Part shown: piece by piece, positions 3,265 to 8,663 of the stretch | Numbering within the stretch: the stretch's first letter is position 1 | How the letters are laid out: each line of letters opens with the position of its first letter | Source of the DNA: Pelagophyceae sp. CCMP2097 | Lineage: Eukaryota; Sar; Pelagophyceae | Direction: 5' to 3' | DNA length: 64,000 nt | NCBI GenBank assembly: GCA_026770575.1 | Contig: MU657276.1 | Span: 1-64,000, forward strand | Translations under genes and position numbers: made by a program | Notes under the pieces: generated by a model | The model's input: only the letters and a program-made list of their open reading frames with translations | Told to the model about the DNA's origin: nothing | Databases searched by the model: none

Positions 3265-4653
3265 TCATCGGGCGAGGAGGAGCGCTTTGCGCGCGAGGCG
3301 CGGCCCGCCTTTTGCGATGTGCGCCGCGGGCACGTCGCCGGGCCGGAGCGTATCGAGCTGCGCGTTGGACGCCTTGAGCGCTTCAAAGTCGACGACGAGC
3401 CTACGCATCGTCTCGGCATTTGACGAGGCGGTCTCAGTCGAGGGGGTCACTCGCGGCGTCCGCGTGATGCCGTGCAGGCCGACGAGGCGCGTCTTTTCGG
3501 GCGGGCCCGGGTGCGTTTCGACGCCGAGGAGCAAGAGGTAGTGCGCGCCCTTGCCGCCGGTGCAGACGGGTCTGTGGCCGTCGGACTTTGCGCGGTCGTA
3601 GGCCACGATGCAGACGCCGCCTTCTTGGAGCCAGGCGACGATGTCGTCGAGGTCCGCCGTGACGAAAACTCGCTCGTGGCCCGCGTGCTGCGCGAGCGCC
3701 ACCAGCGCGTGGATGTCGAAGACCTCGCCGTCGATGGAGCAGCCGAGCTCGACGGCAGCGCTGAGGAGGTCGCCCGCCTTTAACGCGCGGGCGTCCCACT
3801 GGAGCCGGCCGTCGACAAACGGCGGCGCCTCGAAGTGCCTCGGCGCGCCGAGGTGCGGCGCGGGCGGCATTCGCCGCAGCGCCGTGCCGGCGGAGCGGAG
3901 GGCGGCCAGACCGCAGCTCGGCCCGACCTGCCTCTCCCAGACCGCGCCGCCGGCGGCGACGTGGACCTGCCCGAGGGGCGCGTCCGCCCGCAGCGCGCTG
4001 ATCAGGGCGTCCCGCGAGACGTCGATTTGCGCGTCGGCGCAGCGCTCGCGCACGCGCTTCTTCATCCACATCGCGCCCTCTACGTCTTTCGGCGTTGCAG
4101 CGGTGACGTCCCCGGCGGACCGCTGCTGCAGCTTCAGGAAGCCCTCGAGCGCCGAGACGTTGCGGTTGGCGAGCGCGGGCCTACCGACGCGGTCGTCCAC
4201 AATGTTTGCAAGATACGCTCCCGAGAACCCGCACCGCTCGATGGCGACGCGGTCGCATTGGGCGTAGCCGGCCTTTGCGTAGAAGGCTTCGGCGTCCGTG
4301 GTCCAGAGCTGGACGTAGCCAAAGCCGCAGTCGGCGGCCGTGCGCTCCGCAAAGGCCACGAGCTTGCGGCCGAGGCCGCGTTTCCGCGATGACGCGGCGA
4401 CGACGACGGACGTCAGCACGGCGGCGCGGCCGTCCGCCGTCTCCGCCGACTTTTGGAGCCGCGCGTACGCCACCACGCCGCCGTCCACGAGGAGCACGAC
4501 GTGCGTCGGCACGGCCGCGGCGCAGCCGATTGCGGCGATCTGCGCGAGGTCGCGCCGCCGCGCACTGAGCGGGTTCGATGGCCACTGCGTCGATAGGAGG
4601 ACCGCCGCGGCTTCGACGTCGCAAGGCCGAAGAAACGATGCCTCGACCTCCAT
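3265..4653 (-). CDS. NAA80-ACTMAP: Fused actin N-acetyltransferase (NAA80-like) and actin maturation protease (ACTMAP-like)
   Basis: One uninterrupted frame, 462 residues. Residues 1-150 are a GNAT acetyltransferase. The acetyl-CoA loop RKRGLG lies at about 90-95, and QWP near 23-25 is followed by a basic stretch, as in NAA80, which acetylates processed actin N-termini. Residues 235-400 resemble ACTMAP (C19orf54/UPF0692), the cysteine protease that removes the blocked first residue of actin. Matching features are GPSCGL with the candidate nucleophile C247, a VAYD motif near 350 and GAHYLLLLGV with the candidate catalytic H371. Both active-site sets look intact. In animals these enzymes are separate proteins acting in sequence, protease then acetyltransferase. 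Here they share a chain in the order acetyltransferase-protease. An in-frame ATG at 4773 would add 40 residues that duplicate the N-terminus. The 4653 start fits the GNAT domain better. Family calls rest on motif memory. Confidence 0.8.
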   Translation of the reverse strand: MEVEASFLRPCDVEAAAVLLSTQWPSNPLSARRRDLAQIAAIGCAAAVPTHVVLLVDGGVVAYARLQKSAETADGRAAVLTSVVVAASSRKRGLGRKLVAFAERTAADCGFGYVQLWTTDAEAFYAKAGYAQCDRVAIERCGFSGAYLANIVDDRVGRPALANRNVSALEGFLKLQQRSAGDVTAATPKDVEGAMWMKKRVRERCADAQIDVSRDALISALRADAPLGQVHVAAGGAVWERQVGPSCGLAALRSAGTALRRMPPAPHLGAPRHFEAPPFVDGRLQWDARALKAGDLLSAAVELGCSIDGEVFDIHALVALAQHAGHERVFVTADLDDIVAWLQEGGVCIVAYDRAKSDGHRPVCTGGKGAHYLLLLGVETHPGPPEKTRLVGLHGITRTPRVTPSTETASSNAETMRRLVVDFEALKASNAQLDTLRPGDVPAAHIAKGGPRLARKALLLAR

Positions 4654-4860
4654 ACTCGACTGTGGCGCTTCAAACCCCTTGCAAAGGGAGAGGGGATGCG
4701 ATGGAGCGTATACGGGAGGCACCCAAGCTCGCTTGAGCTCGACGTCGCGGAGGAACGCGGCCTCGACCTCCATACCCGTCGACGGTGGCGCTTCAAATCC
4801 CGTTCAAAGGGAAAGGGGGTGCGAGGGAGCGTATGGCACCCAAGCCCGCTCGAGCTCAGC
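4606..4860. repeat. Tandem duplication, 120-bp unit
   Basis: Two imperfect copies of a 120-bp unit span the 5' end of the actin-processing gene. Equivalent ATGs sit at 4653 and 4773 on the minus strand, exactly 120 nt apart. The unit keeps the reading frame, so both copies encode the start peptide MEVEA(S/A)FLR. Confidence 0.8.
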
Positions 4861-5057
4861 TCTCGAGCTCGACGCGCGACGAGTCACTTTCGAAGTCACG
4901 GCCCGGGTTTCGAAAAGTTTCCACACCGTCGCCAAAAGGTGAAAACCCAGTCTATCGCCGTCGATGGCATTCGTGCCGTCGATGTGGTAGATTCGCGGTG
5001 GTGCTGCCAGCAGCCCGACGACCGGCGCGTGTCTCCTCCCAAGGCAGGTAGTCTTGC

Positions 5058-5243
5058 AAAGGCGACAACGCCGCGGCGTTAAAAAGATCAATTTAGATTC
5101 ATCACAAAAATTCGGTGCTTCAAAAGTGGCAGATTCCGCGCGCGGTGGCCGCGTACCGAGACGTGGAGCGCCTTCAAGATCTCCTCCACAGGCTTAGGAA
5201 AGCGACAACGCCGCGGCGTTAAAGATCTGATTAGATTCACACG
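5058..5243. repeat. Direct repeat pair, about 45 bp
   Basis: Segments 5058-5106 and 5199-5243 share an identical 22-bp core (5062-5083 and 5202-5223) followed by a diverged AT-rich tail. They lie between two divergently oriented genes, so a regulatory role is possible but not shown. Confidence 0.65.
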
Positions 5244-6345: not shown

Positions 6346-7540
6346 CATCATGAGGCAGAACCCTCCCATAAAGCCGAGCGTCTGCTGCTTGTTCCCACCC
6401 GCGCGGTCCTTGGCGTCGCCGCGCGACTCGGGCAGCAGCTGGTCCACGACGACGTAGACCATGGCGCCCGCCGCAAAGGCCAACGCGTAGGGCAAAATGG
6501 GCGTCACGTAGAGCACGGCCCAGCACCCCAAAATGCCGCCCAACGGCTCGACGATGCCCGAGAGCTGCCCGAAGAAAAACGCGCGCATGGGCGAGAAACC
6601 GGACCGTCGCAACCTACGCCCGGCGTCGCGGCGGGTTTGCTGAAAGAGTCGGCTCACGGCATGGAGACGGCCAGGCCCTCCGGAAAGTTCTGCAGGCCGA
6701 TGCCAATGGCGAGGTTGCGCGCTCGCGCGCGCGACGCGCCCGGGACGCCCGCGGCGGCGCCGCCGAAGCCGACGCCGACGGCGAGGCCCTCTGGGAAGTT
6801 GTGCAGCGTGATGGCCAGCACGAGCAGCGCCACCGCGCGCCGCTGCGTCACGCGCTTCTTCGCCTGCGCGCGCCGCGTCGGTGACAAAGCACACATTGCT
6901 GCCTCATCGAAGCATCGAGCCTCCGGCCCATCGAATCTGCGGCTCAGGAGCGGCCTCGCTTCTAGCGGACGCCGCGTCGGACGGCCGAGTCGTCGTCGTC
7001 GTCGCGGCCAAAGGCCTCGTCGTCGCTCGCCGAGGCGCCGCGCTCGAGCTTGGACATGCGGCGGCGCTGGACGGCCGACGCCGGCGACGGCGCCTTCATC
7101 TTGGGAGGCGAGCCGCGCGCCCTGTGGTGCTTGGGCGCCGCGTGCACTGCAGACTGCATCAGCTCCAGCGGGTCCAAGTCGCCGTGCCGCTCCAGGATCG
7201 CGTCGCAGGCCAGCATGCCCGCGCCGCCTGCGCGCGGGCGTCGCGGCGGCGCAATGGCTCTTCAAAGGGACGCGGGAAGCGGACCGAGCGCGAATCCGAG
7301 CGTTACCGGTATCCATGCGTGGCTTTTCCCGTACTGCGCCTCTGCGAGCTCGAGGGCGGGCGCGAGGAGCGAGAAGAAGGCCGCCGACGTCATGACGCCG
7401 CCGGCGAAGCCGAGCATGGGTTGCAGCAGCCGCCGCTGCGTCGCCTCGTCCGACGGCAGCACGAAGACCAGCGCCGCCCCGAGCGCCGTCACGCCCCAGG
7501 TGAAGCACGTCGCGCCCAGCGCCTCGACAACCATCCACAT
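6322..7540 (-). CDS. SLC39A11: ZIP-family metal transporter, ZIP11 type
   Basis: Imports Zn2+ and similar divalent metals across a membrane. Four exons: 7540-7285, 7227-6983, 6863-6658 and 6613-6322, with introns of about 57, 119 and 44 nt; the second intron's ends are the least certain. The hallmark transport helices contain [14 protein letters not shown] and then [10 protein letters not shown], matching the paired HN.PEG/QN.PEG motifs of ZIP11. The GQLSG..EP segment and the C-terminal MMALDVALG end are also typical of that subfamily. A long polar loop (Lys/Asp-rich, about residues 100-165) separates the first three helices from the rest. Start chosen at the first ATG ([10 protein letters not shown]), directly at a hydrophobic helix. 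Confidence 0.9.
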
Positions 7541-7886: not shown

Positions 7887-8663
7887 ATGATCCTCCCGCT
7901 GTTCCTCCTGCTGGCGGGGAGCCGCGCGCTCCTGCCGGCGGGCGCGCCTCTCCGGCGATTGGGCCACAGACACGCGAGCCCGCCGATCATCGACGCTGAG
8001 ATTGTGGGAGTGCGCGGCGGCGCGGAGGCGCGGCCGGCGTCGGACACGGCGGCGTCGCAGCGCGAGGACGCGGCGCTGGCGGCGCTCTTCGAAGCAGTCA
8101 GCGGCACGGACCGCGGCTTCTCCACCGACGCGGAAGCAAAGCGAAACGTCGTCGCTGCGATTGCATTGTTGCTGGGAGCTGCGCAGCCGCGCGAGCAAAT
8201 CCAGCTCGGCGGCAACTGGACGCTGGCCTGGACCGACGCGCCCGACATCACCGGCCTGCAAGGCGGCCCGCTGGCGACGGTGGGCCGCATCGGCCAGGAG
8301 ATCGACGCGAAGAATATCGTCAACGTCATCGAGTGGCGGCCGAGCCGCCTGGCTACGGGCCTTGGCGCCGACGCGGCCGATGCAGTCGAGCAGCGCGTCC
8401 TCCTCGCCTACGAGCGCACGGGCGACGCCGTCGAGCTCAAGCTCCGCGGCGCCGGGCTGCGGCCGAGGCAGGTCCTTTCTCGGCGCTTCGGCGGGAAACC
8501 GCTGGACGTGACCGGCGCCATCGATCTCCCTTTTGGCCGCTTCGACATCCTCTACAACGATGGATCTGTGCGCATCGCCAAGACGGGCCAGGGCTTCTAC
8601 TCGATCAACGTCAAGCGCACCATCGGCAACGACGCCGACGACGCGAATGGCACGTGCCCATAA
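7887..8663 (+). CDS. Plastid lipid-associated protein (PAP/fibrillin)
   Basis: Fibrillins bind lipids or small hydrophobic molecules in plastoglobules and thylakoids. Single exon, 258 residues from the ATG at 7887; in-frame upstream codons lack a better start. Residues 1-16 form a hydrophobic signal peptide ending near SRALLPAG, then a basic stretch, the bipartite address for a complex plastid. The PAP domain begins at about residue 105 with GGNWTLAWTD. It shows the LATVGRIGQEID segment and the C-terminal FDILYNDGSVRIAKTGQG motif, all characteristic of the family. The specific fibrillin subgroup is not determined. Confidence 0.85.
   Translation: MILPLFLLLAGSRALLPAGAPLRRLGHRHASPPIIDAEIVGVRGGAEARPASDTAASQREDAALAALFEAVSGTDRGFSTDAEAKRNVVAAIALLLGAAQPREQIQLGGNWTLAWTDAPDITGLQGGPLATVGRIGQEIDAKNIVNVIEWRPSRLATGLGADAADAVEQRVLLAYERTGDAVELKLRGAGLRPRQVLSRRFGGKPLDVTGAIDLPFGRFDILYNDGSVRIAKTGQGFYSINVKRTIGNDADDANGTCP

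Follow-up and report, generated by a model that had tools for sequence, protein, structure and literature searches.

The window analysed here is a 64,000-nt stretch (contig MU657276.1, positions 1 to 64,000) of the genome of Pelagophyceae sp. CCMP2097. On its minus strand a frame of 462 codons, read from an ATG at 4653 to a stop codon at 3265, encodes a single protein of 462 aa in which a GNAT acetyltransferase domain (PF00583, residues 47-130, E 3.3e-11) is followed by an ACTMAP-like protease domain (PF21646, E 3e-12). The coordinates are those given by the initial annotation, which had described an actin acetyltransferase fused to an actin maturation protease at this place; as a correction to it, the strand is the minus strand. 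All of the motifs that it named occur in the protein: QWP at residue 23, RKRGLG at 90, GPSCGL at 244, VAYD at 350 and GAHYL at 369. The host is an ochrophyte stramenopile; its genome has at least 60 light-harvesting-family matches, and the top one among them has algal light-harvesting proteins as its nearest matches.

The gene had also been called intron-free, which does not agree with the deposited gene model. When 54 nt are removed from the window, the translation equals a deposited protein of this organism, hypothetical protein M885DRAFT_570419 (444 aa), letter for letter. The removed segment has GT-AG boundaries (GTGCGG...GGTAG), is divisible by three and contains no stop codon, and the initial annotation therefore saw one unbroken frame; the GNAT and ACTMAP-like fusion is kept in both the spliced form (444 aa) and the form read through (462 aa). 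P0004 and P0005, two further fusion proteins described below, likewise lack the 18 residues that the intron would encode, and the intron is thus probably real. With strand and intron corrected, the original observation holds and is in this sense partly confirmed. Features of the gene are given in Table 1; residue numbers throughout refer to the 462-aa form unless stated otherwise.

Table 1. Features of the fused gene, with positions in the window and the basis of each assignment.
Feature	Position	Strand	Basis
Whole fused gene	3265..4653	minus	open frame; deposited protein equals the spliced window
Exon 1, NAA80-like GNAT domain	4235..4653	minus	PF00583, residues 47-130; phmmer to NAA80
QWP stretch, NAA80 alpha1-alpha2 loop, residues 23-25	4579..4587	minus	W24 aligns with human W105
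RKRGLG, R-x-x-G-x-G loop, residues 90-95	4369..4386	minus	sequence
54-nt GT-AG intron (probable)	4181..4234	minus	its removal gives the deposited protein exactly
Exon 2: linker, ACTMAP-like protease domain, stop codon	3265..4180	minus	homology; splice match
Linker motif DV...MKKRVRE, residues 190-203	4045..4086	minus	alignment of four distinct proteins
PF21646 ACTMAP-like_C match, residues 291-378	3520..3783	minus	Pfam; genome search matches here as well
C247 (C229 spliced), predicted catalytic nucleophile, in RQVGPSCGLAALR	3913..3915	minus	falls on C132 of human ACTMAP
H371 (H353 spliced), predicted catalytic histidine, in AHY	3541..3543	minus	falls on human H234 (KAHW)
C-terminal SNAQL motif, residues 429-433	3355..3369	minus	also in the three remaining proteins and, as SNLQL, in human ACTMAP

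The 5' end of the gene lies in a tandem duplication with a spacing of about 120 nt, made up of two segments (4628-4658 / 4748-4778, 84%; 4656-4711 / 4779-4834, 88%). The duplication (4628-4834) doubles the start codon and the region upstream of it, so that the frame can open at an ATG at 4773, giving 502 aa, or at 4653, where the deposited protein starts. Further direct repeats are found upstream (5050-5083 / 5190-5223, 85%; 5083-5101 / 5221-5239, 84%). The G+C content of the window is 68%, and the longest stop-free runs in 30 Markov-1 simulations of it reached 403-701 codons; frame length was therefore rejected as evidence, and the gene is called from homology and from the recurrence of the architecture. 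The G+C content at the three codon positions of the frame (0.73/0.52/0.88) supports the call. Neighbouring frames match RabGAP-TBC (1392-2408, 6.8e-24), possibly a fragment of a ZIP transporter (6654-7316, 3.5e-7, which is under the model's cut-off) and PAP/fibrillin (7887-8663, 4e-12).

In the whole protein the match to PF21646 (ACTMAP-like_C, residues 291-378) scores 47.4 bits against a cut-off of 27; the protease half alone gives 49.6 bits (E 6.5e-13). The initial annotation had named assignment of this half to another peptidase family as the outcome that would speak against it, and no other peptidase model in Pfam matched at E up to 10. As the human reference we used a sequence that we take to be ACTMAP (351 aa, with the cysteine of GPQCGL at residue 132). 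It matches PF21646 at 6.7e-47 and aligns with residues 242-460 of the algal protein (E 3e-10, 28% identity), with a local score of 122 compared to a mean of 35.0 and a maximum of 57 in 1000 shuffles; the homology extends to the C-terminal SNxQL motif. In this alignment C247 falls on human C132 and H371 on human H234, in agreement with the active-site pair that had been proposed for the algal protein. The four distinct family proteins score 102-149 against human ACTMAP (shuffle maxima 53-58, 300 shuffles each), and 4/4 have Cys at the position of C132 and His at that of H234; both positions are also invariant when the four are aligned with each other. The available text of PMC13367750 identifies C132 as the catalytic nucleophile of human ACTMAP, and the cysteine numbering of our reference agrees with it.

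Structure prediction was of little use for locating this pair. AlphaFold models had a mean pLDDT of 35.7 without relatives and 43.2 with four sequences, too poor to place C247 and H371, and a fold search on that low-confidence model, which we do not count as evidence, returned generic GNATs, with neither NAA80 nor a protease among the best 50 matches listed. In the predicted secondary structure a helix begins at the Cys and a strand at the His, as would fit a papain-like fold, at a confidence too low to count.

The GNAT half resembles NAA80 more than any other acetyltransferase of solved structure. Human NAA80 is matched over residues 6-132 and fly NAA80 over residues 17-137 (phmmer), and these two enzymes rank first and second among solved structures (4.7e-8 and 4.3e-7), followed by a bacterial acetyltransferase at 0.005. 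A profile built from the four family proteins raises the lead of NAA80 over the next structure from about four orders of magnitude to six (6.8e-15 and 3.4e-13, next 3.3e-7), and the complete relative P0004 behaves in the same way (8.1e-10 and 3e-6, next 0.016). The R-x-x-G-x-G loop, which binds acetyl-CoA in GNATs, is present as RKRGLG. According to the available text of PMC10318143, the substrate-contacting residues of NAA80 include W105, R107 and R112 (human numbering). Placed on the algal protein by spacing from the Trp in the phmmer alignment, W105 is equivalent to W24 and R112 to R32, the latter after a one-residue insertion; the position of R107 is S26, and this arginine is missing. It is kept in P0004, which has WPR as in NAA80. 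The conserved polyproline loop described for NAA80, which serves profilin (PMC11465159, available text), has no counterpart in the sequences inspected, as a run of three prolines is absent from the algal fusion, P0004 and P0005. A profilin search of the genome gave no match, and the controls of that search likewise gave none.

The N-terminal lobe is not diagnostic: the first 75 residues alone have no match among solved structures at E up to 10, and the same lobe of P0004 matches NAA80 only, and weakly (E 0.37), so that the assignment to NAA80 depends in part on the core common to GNATs. The top NCBIfam model for the GNAT domain is ArsN2, at 44.8 bits far below its cut-off of 125. Given S26 at the R107 position, the lack of a polyproline run, the undiagnostic lobe and the ArsN2 ranking, we call the domain NAA80-like rather than NAA80; of these, the absence of the R107 equivalent and of a polyproline run speaks most strongly against an NAA80-like specificity. 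On sequence grounds, the assignment of the two halves to the NAA80 and ACTMAP families in the initial annotation is supported.

A genome profile search with PF21646 matched one place only in the 66-Mb genome, and the GNAT half matched itself and one weak place (25.6 bits). These matches leave the fusion as the apparent sole candidate in the genome for either step; the searches, which intron-split genes can escape, gave no second copy comparable to either half. The actin family occupies 16 places on six contigs. The conventional actin gene lies on contig C131, matches a solved ‘Major actin’ at 1e-209 (exons joined by eye) and starts MADEEAQAVVIDNGSG (MADEEAQ), with an in-frame stop shortly upstream; its N-terminus is Met-Ala-Asp-Glu-Glu. 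The remaining actin-family loci are 23-62% identical to it by segment. One of them, a divergent actin-like gene (C13:290400-293500, 35-54% identity by segment), has a predicted open frame starting Met-Glu-Gly-Gly-Asp (MEGGDCIVIDAGSASVKAGYSGEDTPRSVFPSI), a start of the class I type, which makes its product a possible further substrate.

In the published pathway, as given in the available text of PMC11465159, class I actins lose Ac-Met through ACTMAP and NAA80 then acetylates the exposed acidic residue. For class II actins the same source describes removal of Met by MetAP, the action of NatA, removal of Ac-Cys by ACTMAP and acetylation of the acidic residue by NAA80. The portions of the searched literature available to us hold no record of ACTMAP acting on Ac-Ala. 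We consider it reasonably probable that the algal protein, with its NAA80-like GNAT domain and its ACTMAP-like protease domain, finishes the N-terminus of actin in two consecutive steps. Removal of Met by the general methionine aminopeptidase and acetylation of Ala2 by NatA are standard eukaryotic processing, and would come first on an actin that begins Met-Ala-Asp-Glu-Glu. The protease domain, with C247 as the predicted nucleophile and H371 as the histidine, would then cut off Ac-Ala, and the GNAT domain would acetylate the exposed Asp. Overall this would be the class II (muscle) actin route, with Ala replacing Cys. We infer both activities, their order and the Ac-Ala specificity, as well as a benefit from joining the enzymes: the substrate might be channelled between the two domains, as the initial annotation had suggested, and, more speculatively, the fused protease could replace the docking that profilin gives human NAA80.

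The details of the GNAT half bear on another target. The domain could have drifted from NAA80 specificity, with the protease half removing a different acetylated residue or serving another substrate, as S26 in place of R107, the lack of a polyproline run and the ArsN2-like core would allow. The equivalents of W105 and R112 are nevertheless retained, P0004 retains WPR, NAA80 ranks first and well ahead of the next match, and pairing with an ACTMAP domain would then be an odd coincidence; we regard this explanation as unlikely. It is also quite unlikely that the fusion processes actin-family N-termini with something other than conventional actin as its main client, for example the divergent actin-like protein on C13, from which Ac-Met would be removed and whose Glu would be acetylated while conventional actin stays Ac-Ala. 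Removal of Ac-Met ahead of acidic residues is a known activity of ACTMAP (PMC13367750, PMC11465159; available text) and would suit the start of the C13 frame; removal of Ac-Ala has no such record in the text consulted. The C13 gene is divergent, however, and its start codon is a prediction, and the actins on which NAA80 and ACTMAP are known to act are abundant ones.

The fusion occurs elsewhere. A protein search gave 4 matches among 7250 candidates, one of them the window's own protein; it covered proteins of about 144-458 residues that share short exact words, a scope that excludes ordinary animal ACTMAP as well as fusions of greater length or divergence. P0004 (446 aa) has GNAT and PF21646 domains that are both complete, and in P0005 (342 aa) both occur, the GNAT domain lacking its start. 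P0003 (271 aa, on a 1715-nt contig) has PF21646 and the linker motif with no GNAT domain, and was left out of the fusion count. Identity to the window protein is 30-33% for P0003-P0005 and 31-33% for the two proteins with both domains. In the alignment of the four distinct proteins, linker residues D190, V191, K199, R200 and E203 are invariant. This recurrence weighs against an annotation or assembly artefact in which two adjacent genes would have been taken for a single frame: the two domains do have an internal ATG (residue 195) between them, and a frame of this length means little at this G+C, but P0004 and P0005 come from other sources and share the architecture and the conserved linker motif, and the deposited gene model is a single protein. 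Since two more GNAT and ACTMAP proteins exist, one of them complete, we consider an artefact very improbable.

No relatives were found among the bacterial and archaeal genome contigs, viral contigs or phages searched, and a viral or bacterial origin was rejected. That the alga acquired a GNAT/papain-like fusion of the bacterial DUF3335 (PF11814, peptidase C39-like) kind, unrelated to actin, is hardly credible and was likewise rejected: such proteins are often joined to GNAT domains (review PMC10318531, available text) and share general domain types with the algal protein, but a Pfam search with the protease half (E up to 10) gave no match to PF11814, this model has none in the genome either while a control genome gave a match, and the matches go to PF21646 and NAA80 instead.

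Actin finishing by the fused protein also has a bearing on how old the pathway is. The actin N-terminal trimming and re-acetylation pathway is called animal-specific in the available text of PMC10318143 and PMC11465159. The broader proposition is that a photosynthetic stramenopile has a complete bifunctional enzyme that removes Ac-Ala from actin and acetylates the acidic end so exposed, and that trimming and re-acetylation would be an older eukaryotic pathway, not an animal invention, run from a single polypeptide in some lineages; in our judgement it is evenly poised. If so, the fusion would extend the actin-finishing pathway beyond animals. The two enzyme families are known; as far as our searches reach, their joining in one chain in an alga is new within the literature searched, with Haahr et al. 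2022 (Science), reportedly the original ACTMAP paper, lying outside it. That literature yielded no pairing of NAA80 with a stramenopile, and the available text of PMC11465159 and PMC13367750 holds no mention of an ACTMAP-NAA80 gene fusion. Two actin-finishing enzymes that were discovered separately are now tied together by an algal gene fusion through sequence alone, in a protein, M885DRAFT_570419, that still carries the name ‘hypothetical protein’. The predicted Ac-Ala cleavage would be a new specificity, directly testable on the alga's actin, and the fusion may offer a natural single-chain enzyme for making mature actin in the laboratory.

The algal protein can thus be set beside four known systems. 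With DUF3335 GNAT-peptidase fusions it has in common a GNAT and a papain-like peptidase in one chain (PMC10318531, available text), and differs from them in having no match to PF11814. P0004 and P0005, which are metagenome/sequence archive proteins, share its GNAT and PF21646 architecture, linker motif and predicted catalytic residues; they differ in sequence to the extent given above, P0004 in having NAA80's WPR and P0005 in beginning inside the GNAT domain. NAA80/NatH (human 6nas, fly 5wjd) comprises its closest solved relatives, with QWP in the alpha1-alpha2 loop, the R112 equivalent and the RxxGxG loop as common features; the algal domain has Ser at the R107 position and no polyproline run, carries its own protease domain and belongs to a photosynthetic stramenopile. 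With human ACTMAP/C19orf54, in the sequence that we take to be the human one, it shares PF21646, GPxCGL with the catalytic Cys, YD, AH(W/Y) and the C-terminal SNxQL. The algal protease domain, unlike the human, sits behind a GNAT domain, has no proline-rich N-terminus and has about 26 residues inserted after the Cys helix, and the actin of its host has Ala, not Met or Cys, ahead of the acidic run.
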